The position numbers and the translations under genes were made by a program. Positions 3,956-29,933 of a stretch of DNA of 64,000 bases are shown here, piece after piece (the first letter of the stretch is position 1; each line of letters begins with the position of its first letter). The stretch spans positions 81,372,543-81,436,542 of the forward strand of contig OX465281.1 of assembly GCA_949987705.1 (NCBI GenBank). The letters are read 5' to 3'. The stretch is from Thereva unica (lineage: Eukaryota; Arthropoda; Insecta; Diptera; Therevidae). The notes beneath the pieces are model-generated. The model was not told the DNA's origin and did no database searches. It saw only the letters and a list, made by a program, of their open reading frames with translations.

Positions 3956-3986
<31 letters not shown>

Positions 3987-3990
3987 TTTT
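3955..3990. repeat. (TTTA)n simple repeat, retrotransposon tail
   Basis: About nine TTTA units on the plus strand, read as a (TAAA)n tail on the minus strand. They form the 3' end of the nested non-LTR element and mark its junction with the LTR. Confidence 0.9.
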
Positions 3991-4258
3991 CATATTAAAT
4001 AGGGATGTACACAAGACTTACATCTTTTAGAGTACATAAAACAATAAATTGATAAAAATAAATTTTAATATATGTACATATAAACTAATCTAAACTTAAT
4101 AAACTAAGAAGAGGGGAAAATAGGGAAAAGAAAGAAAATTATTTTGAAGTAAAGATCATAGAGAGGAAAGAGAACAGAGAGAATGAAAATAGTAATAAAA
4201 AACTTTACTAAGATAGGACAAGAATATGTGGAAGTAAAGAAGAGAAAGTTTAGAAATA

Positions 4259-5577: not shown

Positions 5578-5691
5578 ATTAATCATTTATTCAGTGAATA
5601 AAAACCGACCGTTACATACCCTCGGGTCACAAAGCCGACTCGCGAGGCAGTGAGGAGCCGAAAAAAACGGTCGCCGTAGGTCTAATATCTT

Positions 5692-5759
5692 TGGCGCCAA
5701 TGTGGGACTCGACTCACGACCTGAGAATAGGAGTCTCATAGTGACTGAGCTAGCCGGGC
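5692..5759 (-). other. tRNA-Lys-derived sequence in 3' end of unit 1
   Basis: On the minus strand it runs from GCCCGGCTAGCTCAGTC to CATTGGCGCCA, in tRNA order: acceptor, D arm, anticodon arm, T arm, CCA. Unit 1 keeps the canonical GCTCAGTC of the D arm but lacks about five bases before the anticodon stem that units 2-4 retain. It lies 75 bp before the 3' LTR, on the same strand as the element. It is probably not a working tRNA, because the D and T arms are altered. Confidence 0.75.
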
Positions 5760-6087
5760 ATCACAGATAAGAGTAGTAATACGGAACGAGGTTAGAGGAG
5801 TGCTTACGCCAACTTTTGAAAAGGTGGAGCAGTCAGTAGATCACTCGGAAGAATATCTGGAAGTACCAGGATCCGGCTGAAGGCAATTCCATATTGTCCC
5901 CCTCCGGTTCCCGTAAACTTACAGGCATTCTCGCCAGAACCGGTTTCCTCTCGTACCGTGGAGTCAATCTCACGCAATCCCACATTGCATGTGACTCACC
6001 CCAGTAGGACGACAGGCAACTAATTCGCCGAGGTACACCCACAGCCTGACCAAAATTTATAAAAATGAAACGGACACCTTTAGGACA

Positions 6088-9000
6088 TCAACGACGTAGG
6101 TCTTTGGCGTGATATACCCCTATGCTCTTCCCGCCCAAATCCTCCAGTTCGTACAAACTAGTTCCAATTCTTTTACGTATCCGAGCTTTCAGAAACCGGG
6201 GTGCCAACTTGGCACTGAAACGACCCGCTCGATTACTCACCCAGAACGTTCTCCGGTAAACCTCATCTCCTGGACGAAAACTGCCCACACGACACCGCAA
6301 GTTGTATTGGGTTTTAAGTCTGATGTGGGCGGCGGCTAAATTAACAGCAATCCGCTCACGAAGCATCTGCATTTTGTCCGTCAATGGTAGAAAAGCTATG
6401 TCACCCTCCTGGAGAACGTTCAGTTTCTTCAGGACTGGATATGCTGATCCGTGTAGAATCATGTGGCTACCAAACAGGGCCTGATATGGGGACATGCCGA
6501 TCGCCGCGTGGTGGGTACTACGAAGAGCACATTCAATGGACGAAAGATGTCTATCCCACTCACGATGATCCTCCTTTAAGTATGCCCTAATGGCGGTTAG
6601 GATGGATCTATTCACCCGCTCGGAAGCGTTAGGGTGAGGCGAATATACAGCCGTGCGCACATGGTGCAGGCCATAGTCGGTCAACAATTTAGCAAACTCT
6701 TTGGAGGTGAATTGCCGACCATTGTCGGAGAAGACCGTTTCAGGAACTCCAAAGGTATGGAAGATAGTTTGCTCGAGAAACTTGACGGACACCGCCGTGG
6801 TCTCAGCGGACACGGGGTGCAGGAAGACAAATTTGGTGAAAGCATCCAATACAACAAATACTGCCGTGTGGCCTTTCTTCGACCTGGGATAAGGACCTAA
6901 GAAATCGACGTATAAAAATTGGAACGGCCTCGACGCATCCATGGGGTTTCCCATAGGTGGTCGAAGTACTGAACTGGGGGCTTTGGTGGTCTTGCAGACC
7001 TCACACTTGGCGATGAACTCCCGAACTTGTTTTGCCATACCTGGCCCAAAGTACTTGCATCGCAATCGGGCTAGCGTTTTCCCTACTCCACCATGCGAGG
7101 CTTGGGGAGGCGAATGATACGATTCGACGAGCGACGCGGTCAATTCCATCTGAATCCACAACTTCCATGTCAGGTCGTCAGCAATCGGGTTTCCAGTACG
7201 TGGTGATGTACGCTTGAAAACGTACCCATCTTCAACTCGCAGGTCTGGTAGCTGCGGTGAGGCTTGCCTGAGGCTATCACCCAGACAAAGATATTCAGGG
7301 GACTTGAAAGACGGGGCATTTAAGTCCACGTCGAAACACAAGACAATTCGTCAACGCAATCCATGCGTGACAAGGCATCGGGAACCACATTGTGGGTGCC
7401 TTTACGATGTTCGATTGTAAAGTTGAACCCCTGAAGCTTAAGACTCCACCGGGCTAAACGGCCATTAAGCTCCTTCTGGCCCATGAGCCATTTCAGACTT
7501 GCATGGTCAGTAATGACCGTGAAAGTCTGTCCCTCAACATACGCTCTAAACTTCTTTATACTCAGCATGGCTGCGTAGCATTCGAGCTCAGTAATGGTGT
7601 AGTTCCGTTGTGCTCCGTTCAACTTCTTGGACATATAAGCAATCGGATGTTCTCCTCCATCCATGTCCTTTTGAAAAAGCACACTACCTACACCAGTTCT
7701 GCTGGCATCGCACTGAATATAGAAAGGCTTAGAAAAATCTGGAGTGACTAAAAGAGGAGCTACCGTCATCAGCTTTTTCAAGGTCTCGAACGCCTGCTGG
7801 GCCTCATCAGTCCAACTAAAAGATTTAGACTTCAAACAATCCGTGATTGGAGAAGCCACGCTAGCATAATTGGGTATGAAACGCTGATACCATCCGGTCA
7901 TACCCAAGAATCTCCGAGTCTGCTTATGAGACTTCGGAGTCGGGAAGTCCATGATGGCCGTCACCTTATTAGGATCGGTTTTCAAAGTCCCATCACCGAT
8001 TATGAAGCCGAGATACTTCACTTCCGTCACGCAGAATTTGCTTTTAGATAAATTGATGGTTAACCCCGCACGACGGAGACAGCTGGCCACTTCGTCCAAA
8101 AGCTTTAGGTGGGAGTCAAAGTCAGGTGACACAATGAGCAGGTCGTCCAGATAGACAAAAACGTTTTCACGTAAATGGCCCGGGATGGTCTTATCCATCA
8201 AGGGACACATGCGCTGTGGGGCGTTGCACAAGCCGAAAGGCATAACTGTGAACTGGTACAATGGACGACCAGGGAAAGTGAAAGCTGTCCGCTCTCGCGA
8301 CTTCATCTCTAGCGGAATTTGCCAGAAAGCGTCTTTGCGGTCTAAACTCGTGATGAACTTGGTGTCTTGAAGACGACCAAGAAGACCATCAATGTGTGGA
8401 AGTGGATAGGCGTCCTTCACAGTGACACTGTTCACCTTGCGAGAGTCAAGGCACAGGCGGACCTTACCTGGTTTACGAACCAACACCACTGGAGAATTCC
8501 AGGAACTATTTGATGGCTCAATCACCCCCAGCGACAACATCCTGTCCAACTCACCATACATCAGCTGTTGTACAGCGGGTGAGGCGGGATAATGCCTCTG
8601 TTTAATAGGAACTGAGTCACCAGTGTCAATGATGTGTTCCTCCAGGTTAGTCTTTCCCAGTCCGAAGACATCAAAAGAGGGAAATCTGGCCTTGACGTGT
8701 TCCAACCGTTCGCATTGCGAGGACGTTAGTCGTGCATTTTTGCAGACACGGATGGAGCGTTTATCTCGCCGACTATTTGGGGAGCGAGGCCGAAAAGATT
8801 CCAAAAATCCATCCCTAGGTACAGTCTCTGGCTGAGACTGGGCACCACATAGATGGTTATATCACGGGTCCTTCCTCCAAAGGATATCGGAACTCGAATA
8901 TAACCGCAAAGTCTCTGCGGAGCCCCGTCAGCAGTATGCACTACAGAGTGCAAAGTGTAGACTGTCACTTCGGGATGATTGGCTAGAAACGCTTCGGCAT

Positions 9001-9481
9001 CTCTCCCCAAACAGCTAACAGTGGCACCACTGTCCAACAACCCAACCACTTCCTCGTTAGCTACGAGGACCTTCGTAAACAGACGAGGATCTGACGAATC
9101 CGAGATGAAGGCAGAAACAATTTTCTGCAAACATTGTCGCTTCTCCTTAGCTCGTACTCTAATTTGGGGAGGGGTGCGCTTGGAAGTTAGGGAGTCCACA
9201 TAAGGTGGCTCTGAGAATATGCACGAACGAGCGGAGATATATCTCTTCCAACGGGAAAGGAATGACAGTTTAACCTCCTCTGAGGGAAAAACAGGAAGAG
9301 CATCAGTTGACGTAAAGTCGCTGATGGTAGTCATAGCAGGGGTAGTTAAAGTATAAACAGGGACAACGGGCGAGCTTAGCTCGGGAGCGGACTCCTGTAC
9401 TGTCTCACACCCCGGCTCCGGTTTCCCTGACAGGTGGGGCACACTGGTGTGACAACTCCTGGCTTGCCACACTTGTAGCAA
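6088..9481 (-). pseudogene. pol: Unit 1 Pol (protease, RT, RNase H, integrase), two frameshifts
   Basis: The polyprotein would process itself, copy the RNA and integrate the DNA. Segment 9481-8726 holds the protease (LLDSGATVSCLG). Segment 8804-7320 holds RT (LDRKDAFWQIP, FVYLDDLLIVS) and RNase H (YIQCDASRTGVGSVLF, ITDHASLKWL). Segment 7341-6088 holds the integrase zinc region (H-H-CEVC), catalytic residues in YVDFLGPY, FSDNGRQFTS and ASERVNR, and a GPY/F-like tail. One-base deletions near 8728 and 7341 break the frame. This is the only unit without the 4-bp RNase H insertion found in units 2-4. It also has a Trp-to-Gly change in the zinc region (KYFGPG). Confidence 0.9.
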
Positions 9482-10485
9482 AATAGGCCACGAGTTTCAG
9501 ACGGGCAGTCCATAAATGGATGACCCGGTTGCTGACAATTCCAACAACGTAAAGGTCGTGGATTCGTCTGGTTCTGACGCGGCGCCGTCATTTCGTCAAC
9601 TTCGGGTGTTGGTAAGTCCGGATGTAAATGTTCAGGCGGGTATGTAGATGGATATTCAACCTCGTGTAGCTGCCGATCAGGCCTGCGCTCTACGCGCTTC
9701 AGCTTCTGCCAGCGTTCGACTCGAACGCAAGTCTCACGCAACTGTTGCATGCTGGTGAAATTCTGTCCTATTATCGCCGAACCTAACGTGTAGTTTAAGT
9801 TACGAATCACGATTCCTATCAAACCGTGTTCCGACATCGGCTTATTCATTCGATTATGCAACGACAGCAGTTGAGCATAAAAGTCATCAAACGAAAGCGT
9901 GTGTTGTTTGGTATCCATCATATGGAGGATCAGTTCCTCATCGGATTCTCGCGTTCGGAAATAACTTATAAATTGAAGTTTAATAGTCGCCCAATCAGGA
10001 TCTACGAATTGTCGTCGAAACTGGGACCAGTACCAATCGTTAGCTCGTCCCGACAACATCGAGGAGAAATGTCGGCAGACTTCCGATAGTTCGACCCCAG
10101 CATCGCGAGCCTTCAGTTCCACCCGGAACAGAAATTCCTCCGCCGACAACAATCTGTCCTCGCCGGAGAACTTTAAATTCCAGTACGTAACTGGAGACTT
10201 GCGATGATGGGTCCCTGATAACGAGGTCAGCCTGAGGTCCGCAGGTGGTGTCATGACAGGTAAAGAAAATTGATCCCGAGTAACACAAGGGTTTATCGGA
10301 ACCGCAACAGGTCGCTGCTGAATTAAAAATGTATCTAGGACTTGTCGCAATTGCGCGATTTGCTCCTCCAGCGAAGGAGTGGGATCAGACCCATTCGATT
10401 CAGTAGCTTGCGCGTCTTGGGGTCTGTCTGGAAGATCACTATTACTAGGTACTGGGGTAGCAGTGTTTCCACTACGAAGTTCCAT
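9376..10485 (-). CDS. gag: Unit 1 Gag (369 aa)
   Basis: Gag forms the particle and binds the RNA. The start at 10485 (MELRSGNTATPV) opens an uninterrupted frame. A glutamine- and proline-rich N terminus is followed by a retrotransposon capsid-like region at about residues 95-260 (YWNLKFSGEDRLLSAEEFL, FISYFRTRESDEELI). Near residue 315 there is a nucleocapsid with a CCHC knuckle, CWNCQQPGHPFMDC, then a Cys cluster CYKCGKPGVVTPVCPTC in which the expected His is Val. The last 106 bases overlap pol in the -1 frame. Residue 7 is Asn here and in unit 4, Lys in units 2 and 3. Confidence 0.9.
   Translation of the reverse strand: MELRSGNTATPVPSNSDLPDRPQDAQATESNGSDPTPSLEEQIAQLRQVLDTFLIQQRPVAVPINPCVTRDQFSLPVMTPPADLRLTSLSGTHHRKSPVTYWNLKFSGEDRLLSAEEFLFRVELKARDAGVELSEVCRHFSSMLSGRANDWYWSQFRRQFVDPDWATIKLQFISYFRTRESDEELILHMMDTKQHTLSFDDFYAQLLSLHNRMNKPMSEHGLIGIVIRNLNYTLGSAIIGQNFTSMQQLRETCVRVERWQKLKRVERRPDRQLHEVEYPSTYPPEHLHPDLPTPEVDEMTAPRQNQTNPRPLRCWNCQQPGHPFMDCPSETRGLFCYKCGKPGVVTPVCPTCQGNRSRGVRQYRSPLPS
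9421..9427 (-). promoter_or_regulatory. -1 ribosomal frameshift slippery site, unit 1
   Basis: On the minus strand the heptamer is G GGA AAC, set exactly in the gag frame, with GGA as codon 354. Slipping back one base leads directly into the pol frame (GKPEPGCETV). The pattern X XXY YYZ is a standard retroviral slippery type. A GC-rich stretch (CCGGAGCCGGGG) follows at once and might form a stimulatory structure. Confidence 0.8.
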
Positions 10486-11024
10486 ACTGGTTACCGTTTC
10501 TTTAAACTTGAGTTAGATGAAAGAGAAGCGGAAAGCAAAAAATATCAAACTACCCAAGGAACAAAATCAACACCGATTAGTGTGTAGTGATAAAACAACA
10601 AGTTTGTATTAGTGTATATATATTAGTGTAGGTGAGTGGTTATATGCTTTGATTTAATACTGATTTAGGAATGGTTGAGGCAGACGCCAATCCCCTCAGG
10701 GCTCCCGCATGTCAATGTCCTCGATGGCAGTTGGTGAAAACTATGAAGCATAGTCATCACCCAGTGCCATCAAGGTCGCCGACACAGCTTCAGGTAGACC
10801 CGAAAGAAGGACGGAAACAAAACTCAAAATCGCATCGCCACGAAAAGAAAGGAAACTTCTTCAAAAATAAAAAAAATTTAGGGGATCCGCTGTTCAACCA
10901 CAACCGAGCTACCTTTCGGAAAATCAATCAGAAGGGTATGTACAGACGGAGAAAAACGAATCAGGACAAAAACAAAAATATAGAATTTAAAAAGCTGGAT
11001 GGACCTTCCGAAGGAACAAGGGGC

Positions 11025-11255
11025 GCAGTGGCAGGCGGTATCACGCCTGATACCAAAGACGGTTAAGCCCTTGTCCCAACTTCAACGTCCACCAGGAAAA
11101 TTAAAAGAAGATCCTGTTCACGGACCGACGCAGTGGCAGGCGGTATCACGCCTGATACCAGAGTCGCCGCCCCTAGAAACAGGACAAAGATGAACCACTA
11201 CTTCACCTGCACGCATAGCCAAGCGAGCACTCGCTTGTTAGCAAGCCGTGCAGGT
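11025..11255 (-). other. Structured leader of unit 1: duplicated hairpin and long stem-loop
   Basis: A 31-bp motif at 11025-11055 recurs exactly at 11130-11160. Each copy contains GGTATCA-CGCC-TGATACC, a perfect 7-bp stem with a 4-base loop. At 11205-11255 a larger stem-loop has an outer stem ACCTGCACG / CGTGCAGGT and an inner stem CAAGCGAG / CTCGCTTG. All lie between the PBS and gag in the RNA leader, where packaging and dimerisation signals usually sit. That role is inferred. Confidence 0.7.
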
Positions 11256-11559
11256 CAGCATGGTTCGAAGCTACTCCAAAAAGAAGAAGTTACCGCAGAA
11301 TAGAACGGGTAGGCCTAAAAGCGAAAACAAATAAAAATTCACATAGAATTTGGACAAGGATGCTGAAAAAAATTCGAAAAATCAGACAAGGACTAAGGCC
11401 TCGCGGTACTACCTTAGCCCACAGCGAGCGCTTGGTAATTGTGGTGAACAATAAACAAAAAAAAATCAAACGTTGTCCGTGAAGGCACAAGTGGTACTAA
11501 ACACCAAAAAAATTAAACTTCAAGGCCCGTGTAGGACGGTCAACGGGCTTTAAAAGCTG

Positions 11560-11571
11560 CGTTGGGCGCCA
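11560..11571 (-). promoter_or_regulatory. Primer binding site (tRNA-Lys), unit 1
   Basis: The minus strand reads TGGCGCCCAACG, 4 bases after the CA end of LTR 2. This matches the complement of the 3' end of tRNA-Lys(CTT) over 12 bases, the primer type used by several animal retroelements. Confidence 0.88.
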
Positions 11572-11575
11572 TTTA

Positions 11576-13688
11576 TGTATTAGCATAATGGCGCGATAAA
11601 ATAGTGGGCGCCACTTATGCGAGGTATTACCCCCTTAGCCATAAGCCCGGAAAAGCATGACCAAGGAGCCAACACCATACATAAGAAAGGAAACTAAATT
11701 CCGGAACTCCTTCGCCGGCCACACGGAGTTATCTAGCTCGCCGGAGGGGTCGTGGGGTGTGTGGCCGGGCCTTACCGCAGTTGGTTCACCACTTACCTGT
11801 GACCATGAAAAATCTTATTCAATTCCCGTCGTCCTTCGGTCCTCGCCTGAGCCGTGTCATGGCTATCTGCTTCCCTGACAGCTCATAGTATCGAAGACTA
11901 TCAGCTTCAGGGAAAGTCACTCTCTAGGACACCCTGAAAAAGAAATATCGCCCGCCCCAACCATTCCACAACAAAACAATCTAATGCACGGACATTACAT
12001 TTATATTTATATCAATTAACATTCCTGTTTATCACAGGTCAACAATGCACAAGATTACAACAATTTACTAACGATATTCAATATTCGTTCTCACTGCTAT
12101 ACTAACAGTATCAGATACAACAATAAAAAAAACAATTCTAAACTACACGACACGGAAATATATAATTAACTATGATTATACAATTAGGTCGACGAAAGAT
12201 GTTGGAAAGAAAACGCGTCGTACGGGTACCCTTACGTCGCGTTTGTACAGACGATATCACATTTATTAATTGCGTATACTAGAAAACCAACTACCTGTAA
12301 AACACAAGAGAAAAAAATTTCTCCAATACGGAGCCAACAAATGCAACCACAAATGTAAATGAAATGTTAATTGAACAGATTCAAATAAACTGCTGTAATT
12401 CTAATTACACTTAAAATTATTATCTAATAATCAATTAAATTGGTGCATTCAAGCATACATAAAGATGTTATCTGTGAGGTGGGTATGTTTGGTTCTTCTC
12501 CTCTCCTATAGGCTACGGGTAAACCCGGTACCGGTCAAGTAATCTCTTCTGTCCGAAGGGATTCCCTATCGTGAAAAGTTACCACTCACACCCGAACACT
12601 TCTAGCAACGATGGTGAGGGTTTCGTGAATATAATCGGGATCTCTTAAATTCCCCTTCTGATGGAACCCATTTCCGCACATTGGACACTCAAACGCTGCG
12701 CAGTCGCAGGTCTCGTAATATTAAATTTGTTACACGATTGTATTAACCTGAAACACCGCCTTGCCGCCTTCGTTACAAACAAAAATTCTTACCTTCGAAT
12801 GTTTGGTAAAGGTCACTTTCTTGCATACTGATGTTGACAATTTCTAGCGCATATACCGCCTTACCAGATGTTTGTTGTTGTTCCCTTCCGCACTTAGTCC
12901 AAACCATAAAACAGACTTCACCATAACTGTCCATCACTGGCAAAGGTTTCACCAGGCGCAAAGTTTCACCACCAGATCTGCTACCAGGTAACTCCTTCTA
13001 TTACCCTACAGTCAAATCCCTCGATGATCAATCTTGAACCGTGCTTCTTCTTCCTTCCCTACACTGCCACCATCGCGCGGCGTCTGAGTCCAAGTCAAAC
13101 GACCCACAATGAATCCACACGGCAGCCAGTCACTTCCGAGTTGATATTATGCAATTCGTGTATACTCTTGAGACACAGCTACCATCTTATTTTGAACAAC
13201 AGATGGGAAATCCAACGTATAACAAAATCTCCTTCGAAAATTGCCTCTTTGTGCAGGATTCCTTGTTGCTGGTTTCTCAGCCCTTTCGGTTGGTTCTTGC
13301 CAGATTTCTTGGTCGTTTCTGGATTCCAATTAGGTTGGGAGCTCACACGATAGCCGCAACTATTTTTTCCGTCCGGCAAAAAGAAAAACTGAATATTCGA
13401 AACGGGTTACAAAACTTTCTATCGCCCGCTTAAAAAAACTGACTCCCCTCAAAACTCTAGGAACTCGCCGACTGTCAACACCGATTTTTAAAAAACCTCC
13501 GACAAAACTTCTTTTCTCATCAATATCTTTTCCCAGACTGACTTTTCCAAATTTTTCTTTTCCGTCCTTTGTTTTTTTCTCTCCCCGCCTACTGTTTGTT
13601 TTCGAACCACTTCTGAATTTCATTCTCGACAGTGATTTTTAGTCAAGTAATTAATCATTTATTCAGTGAATAAAAACCGACCGTTACA
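11576..13688 (-). repeat. LTR 2 (shared by units 1 and 2)
   Basis: 2113 bp, TG...CA. It acts as 5' LTR of unit 1 and 3' LTR of unit 2. It shares diagnostic variants with LTR 5 (for example gaccatg near 11802, gtgtcatgg near 11855, aaactgctg near 12388), which the other LTRs lack. Short frames inside recur in every LTR and on both strands and have no known motif. Confidence 0.9.
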
Positions 13689-13764
13689 TACCCTCGGGTC
13701 CACAAAGCCGACTCGCGAGGCAGTGAGGAGCCGAAAAAAACGGTCGCCGTAGGTCTAATATCTT

Positions 13765-13837
13765 TGGCGCCAATGTGGGACTCGACTCACGACCTGAGAA
13801 TAGGAGTCTCATGCTCTAGTGACTTAGCTAGCCGGGC
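13765..13837 (-). other. tRNA-Lys-derived sequence in 3' end of unit 2
   Basis: A 73-base copy with the anticodon arm TGAGA-CTCCTAT-TCTCA and terminal GGCGCCA on the minus strand. Against the usual insect tRNA-Lys(CTT) the D loop GG is AC, the anticodon triplet reads CCT, and single bases are missing around the T arm and acceptor. The 3' CCA suggests descent from a mature tRNA. A run of seven T (13734-13740, read minus) lies 24 bases downstream, a possible Pol III stop. Confidence 0.8.
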
Positions 13838-14165
13838 ATCACAGGTAAGAGTAGTAATACGGAACGAGGTTAGAGGAGTGCTTACGCCAACTTTTGAAAA
13901 GGTGGAGCAGTCAGTAGATCACTCGGAAGAATATCTGGAAGTACCAGGATCCGGCTGAAGGCAATTCCATATTGTCCCCCTCCGGTTCCCGTAAACTTAC
14001 AGGCATTCTCGCCAGAACCGGTTTCCTCTCGTACCGTGGAGTTAATCTCACGCAATCCCACATTGCATGTGACTCACCCCAGTAGGACGACAGGCAACTA
14101 ATTCGCCGAGGTACACCCACAGCCTGACCAAAATTTATAAAAATGAAACGGACACCTTTAGGACA

Positions 14166-17100: not shown

Positions 17101-17566
17101 TAACAGTGGCACCACTGTCCAACAACCCAACCACTTCCTCGTTAGCTACGAGGACCTTCGTAAACAGACGAGGATCTGACGAATCCGAGATGAAGGCAGA
17201 AACAATTTTCTGCAAACATTGTCGCTTCTCCTTAGCTCGTACTCTAATTTGGGGAGGGGTGCGCTTGGAAGTTAGGGAGTCCACATAAGGTGGCTCTGAG
17301 AATATGCGCGAACGAGCGGAGATATATCTCTTCCAACGGGAAAGGAATGACAGTTTAACCTCCTCTGAGGGAAAAACAGGAAGAGCATCAGTTGACGTAA
17401 AGTCGCTGATGGTAGTCATAGCAGGGGTAGTTAAAGTATAAACAGGGACAACGGGCGAGCTTAGCTCGGGAGCGGACTCCTGTACTGTCTCACACCCCGG
17501 CTCCGGTTTCCCTGACAGGTGGGGCACACTGGTGTGACGACTCCTGGCTTGCCACACTTGTAGCAA
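14166..17566 (-). pseudogene. pol: Unit 2 Pol, two frameshifts
   Basis: Segment 17566-17012 covers the N-terminal part and protease, ending where one extra A near 17036 shifts the frame. Segment 17037-15667 covers RT with its FVYLDDLLIVS motif and ends soon after GGEHPIAY. There a 4-bp insertion near 15713-15719 (catatgtata for catata) moves RNase H into the frame of 15767-14166, which continues through integrase to the stop. RT has LDRKDAFWQ like unit 1, against LDLKDAFWQ in units 3 and 4. The integrase has a private Thr-to-Asn change after CEVCKT. Confidence 0.9.
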
Positions 17567-18570: not shown

Positions 18571-19109
18571 ACTGGTTACCGTTTCTTTAAACTTGAGTTA
18601 GATGAAAGAGAAGCGGAAAGCAAAAAATATCAAACTACCCAAGGAACAAAATCAACACCGATTAGTGTGTAATGATAAAACAACAAGTTTGTATTAGTGT
18701 ATATATATTAGTGTAGGTGAGTGGTTATATGCTTTGATTTAATACTGATTTAGGAATGGTTGAGGCAGACGCCAATCCCCTCAGGGCTCCCGCATGTCAA
18801 TGTCCTCGATGGCAGTTGGTGAAAACTATGAAGCATAGTCATCACCCAGTGCCATCAAGGTCGCCGACACAGCTTCAGGTAGACCCGAAAGAAGGACGGA
18901 AACAAAACTCAAAATCGCATCGCCACGAAAAGAAAGGAAACTTCTTCAAAAATAAAAAAAATTTGGGGGATCCGCTGTTCAACCACAACCGAGCTACCTT
19001 TCGGAAAATCAATCAGAAGGGTATGTACAGACGGAGAAAAACGAATCAGGACAAAAACAAAAATATAGAATTTAAAAAGCTGGATGGACCTTCCGAAGGA
19101 ACAAGGGGC

Positions 19110-19340
19110 GCAGTGGCAGGCGGTATCACGCCTGATACCAAAGACGGTTAAGCCCTTGTCCCAACTTCAACGTCCACCAGGAAAATTAAAAGAAGATCCT
19201 GTTCACGGACCGACGCAGTGGCAGGCGGTATCACGCCTGATACCAGAGTCGCCGCCCCTAGAAACAGGACAAAGATGAACCACTACTTCACCTGCACGCA
19301 TAGCCAAGCGAGCACTCGCTTGTTAGCAAGCCGTGCAGGT
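19110..19340 (-). other. Structured leader of unit 2
   Basis: The 31-bp hairpin motif lies at 19110-19140 and 19215-19245, and the long stem-loop at 19290-19340. All three stems are unchanged from unit 1. Confidence 0.7.
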
Positions 19341-19643
19341 CAGCATGGTTCGAAGCTACTCCAAAAAGAAGAAGTTACCGCAGAATAGAACGGGTAGGCC
19401 TAAAAGCGAAAACAAATAAAAATTCACATAGAATTTGGACAAGGATGCTGAAAAAAATTCGAAAAATCAGACAAGGACTAAGGCCTCGCGGTACTACCTT
19501 AGCCCACAGCGAGCGCTTGGTAATTGTGGTGAACAATAAACAAAAAAAATCAAACGTTGTCCGTGAAGGCACAAGTGGTACTAAACACCAAAAAAATTAA
19601 ACTTCAAGGTCCGTGTAGGACGGTCAACGGGCTTTAAAAGCTG

Positions 19644-19655
19644 CGTTGGGCGCCA
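19644..19655 (-). promoter_or_regulatory. Primer binding site (tRNA-Lys), unit 2
   Basis: TGGCGCCCAACG on the minus strand, 4 bases from LTR 3. Confidence 0.88.
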
Positions 19656-19659
19656 TTTA

Positions 19660-21771
19660 TGTATTAGCATAATGGCGCGATAAAATAGTGGGCGCCACTT
19701 ATGCGAGGTATTACCCCCTTAGCCATAAGCCCGGAAAAGCATGACCAAGGAGCCAACACCATACATAAGAAAGGAAACTAAATTCCGGAACTCCTACGCC
19801 GGCCACACGGAGTTATCGAGCTCGCCGGAGGGGTCGTGGGGTGTGTGGCCGGGCCTTACCGCAGTTGGTTCACCACTTACCTGTGACTATGAAAAATCTT
19901 ATTCAATTCCCGTCGTCCTTCGGTCCTCGCCTGAGCCGTATCATGGCTATCTGCTTCCCTGACAGCTCATAGTATCGAAGACTATCAGCTTCAGGGAAAG
20001 TCACTCTCTAGGACACCCTGAAAAAGAAATATCGCCCGCCCCAACCATTCCACAACAAAAAAATCTAATGCACGGACATTACATTTATATTTATATCAAT
20101 TAACATTCCTGTTTATCACAGGTCAACAATGCACAAGATTACAACAATTTACTAACGATATTCAATATTCGTTCTCACTGCTATACTAACAGTATCAGAT
20201 ACAACAATAAAAAAAACAATTCTAAACTACACGACACGGAAATATATAATTAACTATGATTATACAATTAGGTCGACGAAAGATGTTGGAAAGAAAACGC
20301 GTCGTACGGGTACCCTTACGTCGCGTTTGTACAGACGATATCACATTTATTAATTGCGTATACTAGAAAACCAACACCTGTAAAACACAAGAGAAAAAAA
20401 TATCTCCAATACGGAGCCAACAAATGCAACCACAAATGTAAATGAAATGTTAATTGAACAGATTCAAATAAAATGCTGTAATTCTAATTACACTTAAAAT
20501 TATTATCTAATAATCAATTAAATTGGTGCATTCAAGCATACATAAAGATGTTATCTGTGAGGTGGGTATGTTTGGTTCTTCTCCTCTCCTATAGGCTACG
20601 GGTAAACCCGGTACCGGTCAAGTAATCTCTTCTGTCCGAAGGGATTCCCTATCGTGAAAAGTTACCACTCACACCCGAACACTTCTAGCAACGATGGTGA
20701 GGGTTTCGTGAATATAATCGGGATCTCTTAAATTCCCCTTCTGATGGAACCCATTTCCGCACATTGGACACTCAAACGCTGCGCAGTCGCAGGTCTCGTA
20801 ATATTAAATTTGTTACACGATTGTATTAACCTGAAACACCGCCTTGCCGCCTTCGTTACAAACAAAAATTCTTACCTTCGAATGTTTGGTAAAGGTCACT
20901 TCCTTGCATACTGATGTCGACAATTTCTAGCGCATATACGGCCTTACCAGATGTTTGTTGTTGTTCCCTTCCGCACTTAGTCCAAACCATAAAACAGACT
21001 TCACCATAACTGTCCGTCACTAGCAAAGGTTTCACCAGGCGCAAAGTTTCACCACCAGATCTGCTACCAGGTAACTCCTTCTATTACCCTACAGTCAAAT
21101 CCCTCGATGATGAATCTTGAACCGTGCTTCTTCTTCCTTCCCTACACCGCCACCATCGCGCGGCGTCTGAGTCCAAGTCAAACGACCCACAATGAATCCA
21201 CACGGCAGCCAGTCACTTCCGAGTTGATATTATGCAATTCGTGTATACTCTTGAGACACAGCTACCATCTTATTTTGAACAACAGATGGGAAATCCAACG
21301 TATAACAAAATCTCCTTCGAAAATTGCCTCTTTGTGCAGGATTCCTTGTTGCTGGTTTCTCAGCCCTTTCGGTTGGTTCTTGCCAGATTTCTTGGTCGTT
21401 TCTGGATTCCAATTAGGTTGGCAGCTCACACGATAGCCGCAACTATTTTTTCCGTCCGGCAAAAAGAAAAACTGAATATTCGAAACGGGTTACAAAACTT
21501 TCTATCGCCCGCTTAAAAAAACTGACTCCCCTCAAAACTCTAGGAACTCGCCGACTGTCAACACCGATTTTTAAAAAACCTCCGACAAAACTTCTTTTCT
21601 CATCAATATCTTTTCCCAGACTGACTTTTCCAAATTTTTCTTTTCCGTCCTTTGTTTTTTTCTCTCCCCGCCTACTGTTTGTTTTCGAACCACTTCTGAA
21701 TTTCATTCTCGACAGTGATTTTTAGTCAAGTAATTAATCATTTATTCAGTGAATAAAAACCGACCGTTACA
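19660..21771 (-). repeat. LTR 3 (shared by units 2 and 3)
   Basis: 2112 bp, TG...CA. It is nearly the same as LTR 4, sharing gatgtcgac near 20915, atacggcc near 20937, cactagc near 21017 and gatgatgaatc near 21107, none of which occur in LTRs 1, 2 or 5. Confidence 0.9.
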
Positions 21772-21847
21772 TACCCTCGGGTCCACAAAGCCGACTCGCG
21801 AGGCAGTGAGGAGCCGAAAAAAACGGTCGCCGTAGGTCTATTATCTT

Positions 21848-21920
21848 TGGCGCCAATGTGGGACTCGACTCACGACCTGAGAATAGGAGTCTCATGCTCT
21901 AGTGACTTAGCTAGCCGGGC
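21848..21920 (-). other. tRNA-Lys-derived sequence in 3' end of unit 3
   Basis: By eye the same as the unit 2 copy through all four arms and the terminal CCA. Confidence 0.8.
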
Positions 21921-22248
21921 ATCACAGGTAAGAGTAGTAATATGGAACGAGGTTAGAGGAGTGCTTACGCCAACTTTTGAAAAGGTGGAGCAGTCAGTAG
22001 ATCACTCGGAAGAATATCTGGAAGTACCAGGATCCGGCTGAAGGCAATTCCATATTGTCCCCCTCCGGTTCCCGTAAACTTACAGGCATTCTCGCCAGAA
22101 CCGGTTTCCTCTCGTACCGTGGAGTTAATCTCACGCAATCCCACATTGCATGTGACTCACCCCAGTAGGACGACAGGCAACTAATTCGCCGAGGTACACC
22201 CACAGCCTGACCAAAATTTATAAAAATGAAACGGACACCTTTAGGACA

Positions 22249-25200
22249 TCAACGACGTAGGTCTTTGGCGTGATATACCCCTATGCTCTTCCCGCCCAAA
22301 TCCTCCAGTTCGTACAAACTAGTTCCAATTCTTTTACGTATCCGAGCTTTCAGAAACCGGGGTGCCAACTTGGCACTGAAACGACCCGCTCGATTACTCA
22401 CCCAGAACGTTCTCCGGTAAACCTCATCTCCTGGACGAAAACTGCCCACACGACACCGCAAGTTGTATTGGGTTTTAAGTCTGATGTGGGCGGCGGCTAA
22501 ATTAACAGCAATCCGCTCACGAAGCATCTGCATTTTGTCCGTCAATGGTAGAAAAGCTATGTCACCCTCCTGGAGAACGTTCAGTTTCTTCAGGACTGGA
22601 TATGCTGATCCGTGTAGAATCATGTGGCTACCAAACAGGGCCTGATATGGGGACATGCCGATCGCCGCGTGGTGGGTACTACGAAGAGCACATTCAATGG
22701 ACGAAAGATGTCTATCCCACTCACGATGATCCTCCTTTAAGTATGCCCTAATGGCGGTTAGGATGGATCTATTCACCCGCTCGGAAGCGTTAGGGTGAGG
22801 CGAATATACAGCCGTGCGCACATGGTGCACGCCATAGTCGGTCAACAATTTAGCAAACTCTTTGGAGGTGAATTGCCGACCATTGTCGGAGAAGACCGTT
22901 TCAGGAACTCCAAAGGTATGGAAGATAGTTTGCTCGAGAAACTTGACGGACACCGCCGTGGTCTCAGCGGACACGGGGTGCAGGAAGACAAATTTGGTGA
23001 AAGCATCCAATACAACAAATACTGCCGTGTGGCCTTTCTTCGACCTGGGATAAGGACCTAAGAAATCGACGTATAAAAATTGGAACGGCCTCGACGCATC
23101 CATGGGGTTTCCCATAGGTGGTCGAAGTACTGAACTGGGGGCTTTGGTGGTCTTGCAGACCTCACACTTGGCGATGAACTCCCGAACTTGTTTTGCCATA
23201 CCTGGCCAAAAGTACTTGCATCGCAATCGGGCTAGCGTTTTCCCTACTCCACCATGCGAGGCTTGGGGAGGCGAATGATACGATTCGACGAGCGTCGCGG
23301 TCAATTCCATCGGAATCCACAACTTCCATGTCAGGTCGTCAGCAATCGGGTTTCCAGTACGTGGTGATGTACGCTTGAAAACGTACCCATCTTCAACTCG
23401 CAGGTCTGGTAGCTGCGGTGAGGCTTGTCTGAGGCTATCACCCAGACGAAGATATTCAGGGGACTTGAAAGACGGGGCATTTAAGTCCACGTCGAAACAC
23501 AAGGACAATTCGTCAACGCAATCCATGCGTGACAAGGCATCGGGAACCACATTGTGGGTGCCTTTACGATGTTCGATTGTAAAGTTGAACCCCTGAAGCT
23601 TAAGACTCCACCGGGCTAAAGGGCCATTAAGCTCCTTCTGGCCCATGAGCCATTTCAGACTTGCATGGTCAGTAATGACCGTGAAAGTCTGTCCCTCAAC
23701 ATACGCTCTAAACTTCTTTATACTCAGCACGGCTGCGTAGCATTCGAGCTCAGTAATGGTGTAGTTCCGTTGTGCTCCGTTCAACTTCTTGGACATATGT
23801 ATAAGCAATCGGATGTTCTCCTCCATCCATGTCCTTTTGAAAAAGCACACTACCTACACCAGTTCTGCTGGCATCGCACTGAATATAGAAAGGCTTAGAA
23901 AAATCTGGAGTGACTAAAAGAGGAGCTTCCGTCATCAGCTTTTTCAAGGTCTCGAACGCCTGCTGGGCCTCATCAGTCCAACTAAAAGATTTAGACTTCA
24001 AACAATCCGTGATTGGAGAAGCCACGCTAGCATAATTGGGTATGAAACGCTGATACCATCCGGTCATACCCAAGAATCTCCGAGTCTGCTTATGAGACTT
24101 CGGAGTCGGGAAGTCCATGATGGCCGTCACCTTATTAGGATCGGTTTTCAAAGTCCCATCACCGATTATGAAGCCGAGATACTTCACTTCCGTCACGCAG
24201 AATTTGCTTTTAGATAAATTGATGGTTAACCCCGCACGACGGAGACAGGTGGCCACTTCGTCCAAAAGCTTTAGGTGGGAGTCAAAGTCAGGTGACACAA
24301 TGAGCAGGTCGTCCAGATAGACAAAAACGTTTTCACGTAAATGGCCCGGGATGGTCTTATCCATCAAGCGACACATGCGCTGTGGGGCGTTGCACAAGCC
24401 GAAAGGCATAACTGTGAACTGGTACAATGGACGACCAGGGACAGTGAAAGCTGTCCGCTCTCGCGACTTCATCTCTAGCGGAATTTGCCAGAAAGCGTCT
24501 TTGAGGTCTAAACTCGTGATGAACTTGGTGTCTTGAAGACGACCAAGAAGACCATCAATGTGTGGAAGTGGATAGGCGTCCTTCACAGTGACACTGTTCA
24601 CCTTGCGAGAGTCAAGGCACAGGCGGACCTTACCTGGTTTACGAACCAACACCACTGGAGAATTCCAGGGACTATTTGATGGCTCAATCACCCCCAGCGA
24701 CAACATCCTGTCCAACTCACCATACATCAGCTGTTGTACAGCGGGTGAGGCGGGATAATGCCTCTGTTTAATAGGAACTGAGTCACCAGTGTCAATGATG
24801 TGTTCCTCCAGGTTAGTCTTTCCCAGTCCGAAGACATCAAAAGAGGGAAATCTGGCCTTGACGTGTTCCAACCGTTCGCATTGCGAGGACGTTAAGTCGT
24901 GCATTTTTGCAGACACGGATGGAGCGTTTATCTCGCCGACTATTTGGGGAGCGAGGCCGAAAAGATTCCAAAAATCCATCCCTAGGTACAGTCTCTGGCT
25001 GAGACTGGGCACCACATAGATGGTTATATCACGGGTCCTTCCTCCAAAGGATATCGGAACTCGAATATGACCGCAAAGTCTCTGCGGAGCCCCGTCAGCA
25101 GTATGCACTACAGAGTGCAAAGTGTAGACTGTCACTTCGGGATGATTGGCTAGAAACGCTTCGGCATCTCTCCCCAAACAGCTAACAGTGGCACCACTGT

Positions 25201-25577
25201 CCAACAACCCAACCACTTCCTCGTTAGCTACGAGGACCTTCGTAAACAGACGAGGATCTGACGAATCCGAGATGAAGGCAAGTTAGGGAGTCCACATAAG
25301 GTGGCTCTGAGAATATGCGCGAACGAGCGGAGATATATCTCTTCCAACGGGAAAGGAATGACAGTTTAACCTCCTCTGAGGGAAAAACAGGAAGAGCATC
25401 AGTTGACGTAAAGTCGCTGATGGTAGTCATAGCAGGGGTAGTTAAAGTATAAACAGGGACAACGGGCGAGCTTAGCTCGGGAGCGGACTCCTGTACTGTC
25501 TCACACCCCGGCTCCGGTTTCCCTGACAGGTGGGGCACACTGGTGTGACAACTCCTGGCTTGCCACACTTGTAGCAA
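22249..25577 (-). pseudogene. pol: Unit 3 Pol, one deletion and one frameshift
   Basis: A 71-bp deletion at 25280/25281 removes the stretch before the protease and shifts the frame, ending segment 25577-25224. The frame then runs open from 25216 (GLLDSGATVSCLG) through RT (LDLKDAFWQIP, FVYLDDLLIVS) to 23750. The shared 4-bp RNase H insertion near 23797-23803 forces a switch to 23850-22249 (RNase H, integrase). The integrase reads YGVHHVRT, a variant shared only with unit 4. Confidence 0.9.
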
Positions 25578-26581
25578 AATAGGCCACGAGTTTCAGACGG
25601 GCAGTCCATAAATGGATGACCCGGTTGCTGACAATTCCAACAACGTAAAGGTCGTGGATTCGTCTGGTTCTGACGCGGCGCCGTCATTTCGTCAACTTCG
25701 GGTGTTGGTAAGTCCGGATGTAAATGTTCAGGCGGGTATGTAGATGGATATTCAACCTCGTGTAGCTGCCGATCAGGCCTGCGCTCTACGCGCTTCAGCT
25801 TCTGCCAGCGTTCGACTCGAACGCAAGTCTCACGCAACTGTTGCATGCTGGTGAAATTCTGTCCTATTATCGCCGAACCTAACGTGTAGTTTAAGTTACG
25901 AATCACGATTCCTATCAAATCGTGTTCCGTCATCGGCTTATTCATTCGATTATGCAACGACAGCAGTTGAGCATAAAAGTCATCAAACGAAAGCGTGTGT
26001 TGTTTGGCATCCATCATATGGAGGATCAGTTCCTCATCGGATTCTCGCGTTCGGAAATAACTTATAAATTGAAGTTTAATAGTCGCCCAATCAGGATCTA
26101 CGAATTGTCGTCGAAACTGGGACCAGTACCAATCGTTAGCTCGTCCCGACAACATCGAGGAGAAATGTCGGCAGACTTCCGATAGTTCGACCCCAGCATC
26201 GCGAGCCTTCAGTTCCACCCGGAACAGAAATTCCTCCGCCGACAACAATCTGTCCTCGCCGGAGAACTTTAAATTCCAGTACGTAACTGGAGACTTGCGA
26301 TGATGGGTCCCTGATAACGAGGTCAGCCTGAGGTCCGCAGGTGGTGTCATGACAGGTAAAGAAAATTGATCCCGAGTAACACAAGGGTTTATCGGAACCG
26401 CAACAGGTCGCTGCTGAATTAAAAATGTATCTAGGACTTGTCGCAATTGCGCGATTTGCTCCTCCAGCGAAGGAGTGGGATCAGACCCATTCGATTCAGT
26501 AGCTTGCGCGTCTTGGGGTCTGTCTGGAAGATCACTATTACTAGGTACTGGGGTAGCAGTCTTTCCACTACGAAGTTCCAT
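25472..26581 (-). CDS. gag: Unit 3 Gag (369 aa)
   Basis: Intact frame from 26581 with Lys at residue 7 and the standard CWNCQQPGHPFMDC knuckle. Private changes include MMDAKQ for MMDTKQ and PMTEHDLIG for PMSEHGLIG in the capsid region. The frame is complete although pol in the same unit is broken twice. Confidence 0.9.
   Translation of the reverse strand: MELRSGKTATPVPSNSDLPDRPQDAQATESNGSDPTPSLEEQIAQLRQVLDTFLIQQRPVAVPINPCVTRDQFSLPVMTPPADLRLTSLSGTHHRKSPVTYWNLKFSGEDRLLSAEEFLFRVELKARDAGVELSEVCRHFSSMLSGRANDWYWSQFRRQFVDPDWATIKLQFISYFRTRESDEELILHMMDAKQHTLSFDDFYAQLLSLHNRMNKPMTEHDLIGIVIRNLNYTLGSAIIGQNFTSMQQLRETCVRVERWQKLKRVERRPDRQLHEVEYPSTYPPEHLHPDLPTPEVDEMTAPRQNQTNPRPLRCWNCQQPGHPFMDCPSETRGLFCYKCGKPGVVTPVCPTCQGNRSRGVRQYRSPLPS
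25517..25523 (-). promoter_or_regulatory. -1 ribosomal frameshift slippery site, unit 3
   Basis: G GGA AAC in the gag frame on the minus strand. Confidence 0.8.
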
Positions 26582-27120
26582 ACTGGTTACCGTTTCTTTA
26601 AACTTGAGTTAGATGAAAGAGAAGCGGAAAGCAAAAAATATAAAACTACCCAAGGAACAAAATCAACACCGATTAGTGTGTAGTGATAAAACAACAAGTT
26701 TGTATTAGTGTATATATATTAGTGTAGGTGAGTGGTTATATGCTTTGATTTAATACTGATTTAGGAATGGTTGAGGCAGACGCCAATCCCCTCAGGGCTC
26801 CCGCATGTCAATGCCCTCGATGGCAGTTGGTGAAAACTATGAAGCATAGTCATCACCCAGTGCCATCAAGGTCGCCGACACAGCTTCAGGAAGACCCGAA
26901 AGAAGGACGGAAACAAAACTCAAAATCGCATCGCCACGAAAAGAAAGGAAACTTCTTCAAAAATAAAAAAAATTTGGGGGATCCGCTGTTCAACCACAAC
27001 CGAGCTACCTTTCGGAAAATCAATCAGAAGGGTATGTACAGACGGAGAAAAACGAATCAGGACAAAAACAAAAATATAGAATTTAAAAAGCTGGATGGAC
27101 CTTCCGAAGGAACAAGGGGC

Positions 27121-27351
27121 GCAGTGGCAGGCGGTATCACGCCTGATACCAAAGACGGTTAAGCCCTTGTCCCAACTTCAACGTCCACCAGGAAAATTAA
27201 AAGAAGATCCTGTTCACGGACCGACGCAGTGGCAGGCGGTATCACGCCTGATACCAGAGTCGCCGCCCCTAGAAACAGGACAAAGATGAACCACTACTTC
27301 ACCTGCACGCATAGCCAAGCGAGCACTCGCTTGTTAGCAAGCCGTGCAGGT
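27121..27351 (-). other. Structured leader of unit 3
   Basis: The hairpin motif lies at 27121-27151 and 27226-27256, and the long stem-loop at 27301-27351, with all paired bases kept. Confidence 0.7.
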
Positions 27352-27655
27352 CAGCATGGTTCGAAGCTACTCCAAAAAGAAGAAGTTACCGCAGAATAGA
27401 ACGGGTAGGCCTAAAAGCGAAAACAAATAAAAATTCACATAGAATTTGGACAAGGATGCTGAAAAAAATTCGAAAAATCAGACAAGGACTAAGGCCTCGC
27501 GGTACTACCTTAGCCCACAGCGAGCGCTTGGTAATTGTGGTGAACAATAAACAAAAAAAAATCAAACGTTGTCCGTGAAGGCACAAGTGGTACTAAACAC
27601 CAAAAAAATTAAACTTCAAGGTCCGTGTAGGACGGTCAACGGGCTTTAAAAGCTG

Positions 27656-27667
27656 CGTTGGGCGCCA
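27656..27667 (-). promoter_or_regulatory. Primer binding site (tRNA-Lys), unit 3
   Basis: TGGCGCCCAACG on the minus strand, 4 bases from LTR 4. Confidence 0.88.
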
Positions 27668-27671
27668 TTTA

Positions 27672-29785
27672 TGTATTAGCATAATGGCGCGATAAAATAG
27701 TGGGCGCCACTTATGCGAGGTATTACCCCCTTAGCCATAAGCCCGGAAAAGCATGACCAAGGAGCCAACACCATACATAAGAAAGGAAACTAAATTCCGG
27801 AACTCCTACGCCGGCCACACGGAGTTATCTAGCTCGCCGGAGGGGTCGTGGGGTGTGTGGCCGGGCCTTACCGCAGTTGGTTCACCACTTACCTGTGACT
27901 ATGAAAAATCTTATTCAATTCCCGTCGTCCTTCGGTCCTCGCCTGAGCCGTATCATGGCTATCTGCTTCCCTGACAGCTCATAGTATCGAAGACTATCAG
28001 CTTCAGGGAAAGTCACTCTCTAGGACATCCTGAAAAAGAAATATCGCCCGCCCCAACCATTCCACAACAAAAAAATCTAATGCACGGACATTACATTTAT
28101 ATTTATATCAATTAACATTCCTGTTTATCACAGGTCAACAATGCACAAGATTACAACAATTTACTAACGATATTCAATATTCGTTCTCACTGCTATACTA
28201 ACAGTATCAGATACAACAATAAAAAAAAACAATTCTAAACTACACGACACGGAAATATATAATTAACTATGATTATACAATTAGGTCGACGAAAGATGTT
28301 GGAAAGAAAACGCGTCGTACGGGTACCCTTACGTCGCGTTTGTACAGACGATATCACATTTATTAATTCCGTATACTAGAAAACCAACTACCTGTAAAAC
28401 ACAAGAGAAAAAAATATCTCCAATACGGAGCCAACAAATGCAACCACAAATGTAAATGAAATGTTAATTGAACAGATTCAAATAAAATGCTGTAATTCTA
28501 ATTACACTTAAAATTATTATCTAATAATCAATTAAATTGGTGCATTCAAGCATACATAAAGATGTTATCTGTGAGGTGGGTATGTTTGGTTCTTCTCCTC
28601 TCCTATAGGCTACGGGTAAACCCGGTACCGGTCAAGTAATCTCTTCTGTCCGAAGGGATTCCCTATCGTGAAAAGTTACCACTCACACCCGAACACTTCT
28701 AGCAACGATGGTGAGGGTTTCGTGAATATAATCGGGATCTCTTAAATTCCCCTTCTGATGGAACCCATTTCCGCACATTGGACACTCAAACGCTGCGCAG
28801 TCGCAGGTCTCGTAATATTAAATTTGTTACACGATTGTATTAACCTGAAACACCGCCTTGCCGCCTTCGTTACAAACAAAAATTCTTACCTTCGAATGTT
28901 TGGTAAAGGTCACTTCCTTGCATACTGATGTCGACAATTTCTAGCGCATATACGGCCTTACCAGATGTTTGTTGTTGTTCCCTTCCGCACTTAGTCCAAA
29001 CCATAAAACAGACTTCACCATAACTGTCCGTCACTAGCAAAGGTTTCACCAGGCGCAAAGTTTCACCACCAGATCTGCTACCAGGTAACTCCTTCTATTA
29101 CCCTACAGTCAAATCCCTCGATGATGAATCTTGAACCGTGCTTCTTCTTCCTTCCCTACACCGCCACCATCGCGCGGCGTCTGAGTCCAAGTCAAACGAC
29201 CCACAATGAATCCACACGGCAGCCAGTCACTTCCGAGTTGATATTATGCAATTCGTGTATACTCTTGAGACACAGCTACCATCTTATTTTGAACAACAGA
29301 TGGGAAATCCAACGTATAACAAAATCTCCTTCGAAAATTGCCTCTTTGTGCAGGATTCCTTGTTGCTGGTTTCTCAGCCCTTTCGGTTGGTTCTTGCCAG
29401 ATTTCTTGGTCGTTTCTGGATTCCAATTAGGTTGGGAGCTCACACGATAGCCGCAACTATTTTTTCCGTCCGGCAAAAAGAAAAACTGAATATTCGAAAC
29501 GGGTTACAAAACTTTCTATCGCCCGCTTAAAAAAACTGACTCCCCTCAAAACTCTAGGAACTCGCCGACTGTCAACACCGATTTTTAAAAAACCTCCGAC
29601 AAAACTTCTTTTCTCATCAATATCTTTTCCCAGACTGACTTTTCCAAATTTTTCTTTTCCGTCCTTTGTTTTTTTCTCTCCCCGCCTACTGTTTGTTTTC
29701 GAACCACTTCTGAATTTCATTCTCGACAGTGATTTTTAGTCAAGTAATTAATCATTTATTCAGTGAATAAAAACCGACCGTTACA
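27672..29785 (-). repeat. LTR 4 (shared by units 3 and 4)
   Basis: 2114 bp, TG...CA, sister to LTR 3. It carries ttccgtatac near 28367 like LTR 1, where LTRs 2, 3 and 5 have ttgcgtatac. Confidence 0.9.
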
Positions 29786-29860
29786 TACCCTCGGGTCCAC
29801 AAAGCCGACTCGCGAGGCAGTGAGGAGCCGAAAAAACGGTCGCCGTAGGTCTAATATCTT

Positions 29861-29933
29861 TGGCGCCAATGTGGGACTCGACTCACGACCTGAGAATAGG
29901 AGTCTCATGCTCTAGTGACTTAGCTAGCCGGGC
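29861..29933 (-). other. tRNA-Lys-derived sequence in 3' end of unit 4
   Basis: Same 73-base form as units 2 and 3. The downstream T run is six instead of seven. Confidence 0.8.

Follow-up and report, generated by a model that had tools for sequence, protein, structure and literature searches.

A tRNA-Lys-like segment before the 3' long terminal repeat of a Ty3/gypsy retrotransposon family in Thereva unica

Introduction

How retroelements acquire and handle their primer tRNAs has been well studied in only a few viruses. Here we analysed a 64,000-nt stretch of the genome of the fly Thereva unica (contig OX465281.1, positions 81,372,543 to 81,436,542; hereafter the window), in which a tandem array of an abundant Ty3/gypsy retrotransposon carries, shortly before its long terminal repeats (LTRs), a segment resembling tRNA-Lys, the same type of tRNA to which its primer-binding site (PBS) corresponds. 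The element probably belongs to the Osvaldo lineage, of which we take Ulysses to be a member; this placement is based on LTR length, PBS, target duplication and pol.

Elements of the Osvaldo lineage are described, in the accessible text of two reports, as having a tRNA-Lys PBS, LTRs of about 1-2.6 kb and 4-bp target duplications (PMC3286476, PMC3630058), and the array in the window has in common with them the tRNA-Lys PBS, long LTRs (2113 bp) and a 4-bp duplication (AGCA). In the same text, the pol of an Isis-like element of Calliphora has 1137 amino acids (aa), compared with the 1136-aa open frames found here (PMC3286476, PMC3630058). For cqgypsy_1 of Culex, an Osvaldo-like element, CCA-bearing copies of tRNA (Lys and Glu) were ascribed to reverse-transcribed mature tRNA, as far as the accessible text goes (PMC3286476).

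Results

A tRNA-Lys-like segment in four array units

The window was aligned locally to a reference sequence of tRNA-Lys-CTT with a CCA end. The alignment returned exactly the four minus-strand intervals that an earlier sequence-only reading had taken to be derived from tRNA-Lys:

29861-29933, minus strand: tRNA-Lys-like copy, 73 nt (local alignment, 65/73 identities)
21848-21920, minus strand: tRNA-Lys-like copy, 73 nt (local alignment, 65/73 identities)
13765-13837, minus strand: tRNA-Lys-like copy, 73 nt (local alignment, 65/73 identities; the Rfam tRNA match of 24.8 bits lies inside)
5692-5759, minus strand: tRNA-Lys-like copy of unit 1, with a 5-nt deletion in the D arm (local alignment, 61/68 identities)

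The sequence and the site could be read directly. In all four units the alignment ran end to end with both tRNA termini present, and the segment, which is in sense orientation, is separated from the LTR downstream by 75-76 nt; a distance of about 75 bp had been proposed. The score was 91 in the interval 13600-14000, while the maximum in 1000 dinucleotide shuffles was 25, and the best score elsewhere in the window was 24, obtained with 600-base chunks not touching the four copies. The proposed derivation from tRNA-Lys held, with two corrections: the anticodon loop reads CTCCTAT instead of CTCTTAA, and a G is missing at the acceptor end (TTGG-CGCCA).

The covariance search suggested by the earlier reading gave a tRNA match around unit 2, but its score of 24.8 bits was under the curated cut-off of 29, which is in line with a decayed tRNA. 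No tRNA was called in the window by ARAGORN, nor by Rfam at the gathering threshold. Among 20 loci of the host genome scanned with ARAGORN, seven were called tRNA-Lys (CTT) at the place of the segment, including the element copies L014 and L016. Among 20 loci scanned with Rfam, 10 scored 29 bits or above, three matched below and seven had no match. Because L014 and L016 were called tRNA-Lys (CTT), with L014 reaching 35.3 bits in Rfam, the tRNA-Lys identity does not depend solely on the reference letters used in the alignment.

The segment is indeed in all four units, as had been stated, but these are not independent witnesses, since they belong to one array with one target duplication. Self-BLAST showed that positions 1868-37539 on the minus strand form a single tandem array of the element, composed of five LTRs (about 2113 bp each) and four internal regions at 99% identity, and the whole array is bounded by a single 4-bp target-site duplication, AGCA.

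Occurrence of the segment across the element family

The host genome (910 Mb, 930 contigs) was then surveyed, and all copies compared below come from this one genome. A search by tRNA similarity gave 700 first-look candidates, of which 40 were listed; 28 of the 40 were read, three of them being array units. All 28 showed the same order of tRNA-like sequence, spacer, GC-rich block and LTR start. To avoid the bias of picking by tRNA similarity, copies were also picked by their integrase, and counts out of 34 or 35 in this paper use only these. The first integrase set comprised 20 copies taken from 100 rows listed (14752 candidates); these 100 rows were all at least 96% identical, many with a 1136-aa open frame. 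The second set, obtained with a query from a sister subfamily, comprised 15 copies taken from 150 rows listed (9248 candidates).

The results showed the segment in 34 of the 35 integrase-picked copies (19/20 and 15/15). The one copy without it, L090, is interrupted by an insertion ahead of this site, as read by eye, and was omitted from the 34 because its piece stops short of the site. Downstream of the segment, 21 of the 34 stretches contained the LTR start, and 32 contained the beginning of the pre-LTR block. The integrase pieces compared ranged in identity down to 81%, with synonymous divergence (dS) up to 1.10. The segment was absent from two control elements, the other gypsy element of the window (score 13) and the element at L053 (score 16). 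The segment thus belongs to the element family and is not peculiar to the array, and this family-wide presence across the sampled subfamilies is the main new fact beyond the earlier reading.

Loci L053-L084 were picked by tRNA-Lys similarity (32 of 41 matches read), so that a near-perfect match among them overstates conservation. By reading, 10 of these 32 were primer copies beside an LTR end and 17 were the module with a downstream LTR start, while no LTR start was found in the remaining five (L059, L061, L062, L073 and L076). In the copies L061, L105 and L109, labelled B1, other sequence replaces the pre-LTR block after the tRNA-like segment, and the stretches end before the LTR.

Relatives were also sought outside the host. 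Scans of IMG/VR with peptide patterns matched 3 and 146 stretches, none of which was confirmed, and two DNA patterns had no match there. A scan of GTDB gave four distant relatives (34-37% identity) in metagenome-assembled bins, which were not used.

The 3' module and the primer-binding site

Between the tRNA-like copy of unit 1 and the LTR, and upstream of this copy, the following features were found:

5661-5667, minus strand: T run (7 T) between the tRNA-like copy and the LTR
5617-5660, minus strand: GC-rich pre-LTR block directly adjoining the start of the LTR (identity of 0.98-1.0 in 25-nt windows when representatives of the five flank clusters are compared)
5894-5905, minus strand: polypurine-tract-like GGAGGGGGACAA, about 280 nt upstream of the LTR

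A purine tract, GGGGACAA, lies upstream of the segment in 30 of the 34 integrase-picked copies and was not found in L105-L108; where both were seen, it is about 280-330 nt before the LTR. The tract GGAGGGGGACAA is often followed by a short inverted repeat, GACAAT..ATTGTC, and is far upstream of the LTR instead of adjoining it. In those B1 and B2 copies that were read, the LTR is not directly preceded by purine-rich sequence. In 11 of 20 other loci the LTR start (TGTAACGG or TATAACGG) was found adjoining flanking sequence without the pre-LTR block; none was seen in the stretches fetched for the other nine.

A PBS of tRNA-Lys type had been claimed for the element, and TGGCGCCCAACG was found once per unit, starting 4 nt after the LTR:

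35411-35422, minus strand: PBS TGGCGCCCAACG of the 5'-most unit
27656-27667, minus strand: PBS of the second unit in sense order
19644-19655, minus strand: PBS of the third unit in sense order
11560-11571, minus strand: PBS of the fourth unit in sense order

A tRNA-Lys PBS was also present in 16 of 24 other stretches searched (12/20, one with a mismatch, plus 4/4), with no site in the remaining eight. A second TGGCGCCCA, located within the LTR 38-43 nt upstream of the PBS, occurs in the window (11573-11700) and in eight of 12 PBS-bearing loci, and could pair with GCGCCA as a hairpin.

Copies of the primer beside LTR ends

The exact 3' 29-mer of tRNA-Lys occurs 11 times in the host genome. In all 10 contexts read, it continues with CCA and then with LTR-end-like sequence in antisense, and BLAST confirmed similarity to the LTR end of the array in five of the 10 (L054, L065, L083, L131 and L132). 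An ordinary tRNA-Lys gene without CCA was found at none of these 10 places, nor did the genuine genes for this tRNA turn up. The 29-mer loci are DNA copies of the primer itself. The earlier reading had named a mature CCA-bearing tRNA of the same type as the PBS as the source of the segment, and aberrant reverse transcription of the primer as one route; the source is supported, and so is the route as the likely origin.

Copying of a primer tRNA usually stops at 1-methyladenosine 58 (m1A58). Among the 15 loci that could be parsed by script, the tRNA copy begins between tRNA positions 1 and 45 in 13, so that reverse transcription ran beyond m1A58 there. Primer tRNA-Lys copies with CCA directly beside LTR-end-like sequence were read at L053-L057, L065, L083 and L130-L134, and include lengthened PBSs and aberrant joints. 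At L131 the normal post-PBS region lies beyond the tRNA copy, which identifies a lengthened PBS, while at L083 the tRNA copy is flanked by two copies of the LTR end. The order at L065 is sense 3' region, 5' part of the tRNA-like segment of the element type, exact 3' part of the tRNA with CCA, and antisense LTR end; in this chimera, an aberrant product, sequence has passed between the copied primer and the 3' segment. Past the tRNA at L054 and L065, an antisense LTR end of about 115-153 nt is followed by one in sense, and the switch may reflect how long minus-strand strong-stop DNA is.

Conservation of the segment

Among the 21 distinct integrase-picked sequences, the best match to tRNA-Lys was at bases 8-9 (0.98), followed by the 3' strand of the anticodon stem (0.97), the 5' acceptor strand (0.96) and the 3' strand of the T stem (0.94). 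The CCA end was among the poorest-matching parts (0.62), the D loop was variable with gaps, and a TTCGA T loop was present in none of the 21. The anticodon is CTT in 16 and CCT in 18 of the 34 integrase-picked copies. GGCGCCA is present in 12 of the 34, an A box in three and a B box in none, confirming the alteration of the internal promoter boxes that had been claimed. The D arm is lost in the B1' copies L110-L114.

The flanks were compared in 26 of the 28 tRNA-picked loci, two of the three window units being left out, and fell into five clusters. Representatives of the five were 0.87-0.98 identical in the tRNA-like segment versus 0.38-0.56 in the 75 nt upstream. A pairwise set of eight copies (28 pairs) was made up of six integrase-picked copies, the window and the tRNA-picked L061. 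The mean mismatch was 0.134 in the tRNA-like segment versus 0.271 in the adjacent 140 nt, and the segment was the lower of the two in 26 of 28 pairs; without L061 the means were 0.148 and 0.285 over 21 pairs. The tRNA-like distance was 0.06-0.24 (mean 0.15), compared with an integrase dS of up to 1.10 (mean 0.69). A roughly two-fold constraint on the segment relative to adjacent sequence is suggested by these comparisons; it is likely but not proved.

Layout and coding content of the array

The ends of the array, its coding parts in the left-most unit and the interrupted LTR were as follows:

37540-37543, no strand: target-site duplication AGCA, right
35427-37539, minus strand: 5' LTR of the array, 2113 bp, starting TGTAACGG and ending TAATACA (self-BLAST and boundary reading)
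9376-10485, minus strand: gag-like open reading frame (ORF), left-most unit (Retrotrans_gag; zinc knuckle just under the cut-off)
6088-9481, minus strand: pol pieces in the left-most unit, protease-like, reverse transcriptase (RT)/RNase H and integrase, in several frames
1868-5616, minus strand: 3' LTR of the array, split by a long interspersed nuclear element (LINE) into LTR pieces at about 5578-5616 and 1868-3952
1864-1867, no strand: target-site duplication AGCA, left

Pfam matches on ORF pieces gave the order gag, protease, RT-RNase H, integrase, as in Ty3/gypsy elements, with the protease match just under the cut-off. The named matches to the RT piece were insects, namely Drosophila bipectinata, Calliphora vicina, Eurosta solidaginis and others, among 120 listed of which most were nameless. 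The LINE (about 3953-5577, RT on the minus strand, TATT-repeat tail) sits about 38 bp inside the 3' LTR of the array. Between PBS and gag, each of the four units has a 131-aa ORF that runs antisense to the element (10671-11066 and the equivalent places). Elsewhere in the window, a second gypsy element at 49995-56432 on the plus strand has 229-bp LTRs and a purine tract directly before its 3' LTR, without a tRNA-like segment, and a perfect tandem duplication of about 423 bp lies at 42072-42919.

Discussion

We favour, with a probability of roughly 0.48, that the segment is a captured mature tRNA-Lys primer which now forms a durable part of the 3' module of an Osvaldo-type Ty3/gypsy element, under moderate constraint and probably as a cis-acting RNA segment. 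In an ancestor, the element's own mature tRNA-Lys primer, with its CCA tail, would have been copied by reverse transcription into the 3' non-coding part of the element genome. While making the minus strand, reverse transcriptase would have jumped from the element RNA onto the CCA end of the tRNA, continued to the 5' end of the tRNA and then returned to the element RNA. The captured copy may then have been retained in a 3' module consisting of purine tract, tRNA-like segment, pre-LTR block and LTR, where it seems to change about half as fast as adjoining sequence and probably serves as a cis-acting RNA segment. We infer a single origin and a present function for the segment, the odds that it has some function being about even. 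On this reading it does not act as a working tRNA, a Pol III (RNA polymerase III) promoter or, in general, a partner of the PBS; since pairing with the PBS, a second PBS of the Ty3 type and Pol III use are each contradicted or unsupported, a cis-acting RNA segment remains.

Several results weigh against a retained and constrained tRNA-like segment. Rfam matched only three of 10 integrase-picked copies, none of them at 29 bits or above, and found nothing up to E=1 in the other seven; ARAGORN called none of three (L105, L106 and L109). Among copies with open frames of 1122-1159 aa, L091, L092, L098 and L100 lack the CCA or GGCGCCA end and L110-L113 lack an intact D arm, so recent transposition seems to require neither feature. 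The adjacent 140 nt are less diverged than the segment in two of the 28 pairs, and the tRNA-like distance exceeds dS in four. Windows 100-300 nt upstream reach 0.66-0.83 identity among the five flank clusters, and in eight rows (seven integrase-picked copies and the window) upstream windows reach 0.72-0.86 versus 0.64-0.77 in the segment. L116 and L117 are nearly the same in integrase (dS 0.01), but their 3' modules differ, with seven mismatches in 60 positions and eight gap positions in the tRNA-like segment. The 3' ends are therefore exchanged between element lineages, and since the modules recombine in this way, the pol clock cannot date the segment. A helix between the T-arm region and the pre-LTR block was predicted by RNAalifold with 94.1% paired cells versus 40-56% in slid alignments, but shuffles averaged 92.3% and covariation was weak.

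In the strongest rival, the segment is a passenger: a primer copy captured once and without function, which multiplied in a large recent burst and moved between element lineages as their 3' ends recombined, perhaps being refreshed occasionally from packaged tRNA. The shuffled 3' ends of L116/L117, the recurrent primer copying at the 29-mer loci, the loss of the D arm, the Lys anticodon or the CCA end in some copies with a long open pol, and other 3' segments that are equally conserved would all fit such a passenger. It is a serious alternative, which we hold to be somewhat less probable than a retained segment: the segment has about half the rate of change of the adjacent 140 nt, its altered T loop is unrefreshed in all 21 distinct integrase-picked copies, and it is present in the subfamilies sampled by integrase. 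The segment might instead recruit the primer or its synthetase, as it copies exactly the primer tRNA, the tRNA-Lys PBS recurs in the other stretches searched, a CTT anticodon is readable in nearly half of the integrase-picked copies, and both D and anticodon stems appear in a predicted consensus (12 sequences, two of them integrase-picked). Such recruitment appears unlikely, given that slightly more copies have CCT in its place and that L110-L114 have no D arm.

The remaining explanations fared worse. The GGCGCCA end of the window copy offers seven contiguous bases complementary to the PBS and had been proposed to circularise the RNA or to prime on it. The duplex energy in the window, -19.0 kcal/mol, is reached by 18.6% of 500 shuffles in a control made on the window copy only, GGCGCCA is present in only about a third of the integrase-picked copies, and the 3' half joined at L065 is that of the real tRNA, not the element version; such pairing as a general function is very improbable. 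The pre-LTR block was also tried as a Ty3-like 3' PBS for tRNA-Lys, and pairing was no better than in shuffles (p 0.185-0.985 in seven sequences); nor was its pairing with the tRNA-like segment of the element itself above shuffles. Transcription by Pol III from the segment, as in Helenus or in tRNA-derived short interspersed nuclear elements (SINEs), would find a terminator in the T run that follows it in the window and in many type-A copies. This is more improbable still, because the B box is missing throughout, the A box nearly so, and the B1 copies L064 and L079 have just three consecutive T there. Least probable of all is a tRNA-Lys SINE inserted into the element, another option of the earlier reading, which would account for the SINE-like tRNA head; every one of the 28 matches read lies in one element module, and no tail or flanking duplication was seen, judged by eye.

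With a copy of its own primer built into its RNA, this lineage offers a natural experiment on primer recruitment, in variants that have or lack the D arm, the Lys anticodon and the CCA end, and its primer scars record in genomic DNA how far reverse transcription enters a tRNA. Even as a passenger without function, the segment would be a clear fossil of primer capture.

In our literature search, which covered freely accessible text with subscription papers outside its scope, no published description of a tRNA-Lys copy upstream of a 3' LTR was found. The nearest published tRNA-bearing LTR element that we found, going by the accessible text, is Helenus, a group of terminal-repeat retrotransposons in miniature which, like the element here, are LTR retrotransposons bearing a tRNA-like sequence (PMC10886601). 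Helenus elements do not correspond in location, coding content or promoter boxes: they are short and non-coding with the tRNA-like sequence inside the LTR, whereas the element here has gag and pol with the sequence 75-76 nt outside the LTR, and they have conserved A and B boxes without complementarity to a PBS, compared with A boxes in 3/34 and B boxes in 0/34 here (PMC10886601). In Ty3, with its bipartite PBS, the 3' region of the RNA is also linked to the primer tRNA, but there U3 (unique 3' region) segments hybridise with tRNA arms, while the segment here is a sense copy, unable to pair in that way (PMC5371799, accessible text). The tRNA-like element of HIV-1 likewise resembles part of its own tRNA-Lys primer, which is handed over from lysyl-tRNA synthetase (PMC8473020). 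In the accessible text, it is an anticodon-arm mimic in the PBS region that is not described as a tRNA copy and for which binding is reported (PMC8473020).

The closest comparison is within the Osvaldo lineage. The accessible text of PMC3286476 and PMC3630058 makes no mention of a tRNA-like sequence before the 3' LTR, which is present in the host copies studied here. As accessible, the description of cqgypsy_1 resembles L083, with its tRNA copy enclosed by a pair of LTR ends (PMC3286476). In cqgypsy_1, a tRNA dimer is found at the PBS with a 26-nt LTR duplication and is absent from Aedes relatives, whereas Thereva unica elements of several subfamilies also carry one copy, in sense orientation, at the 3' end.

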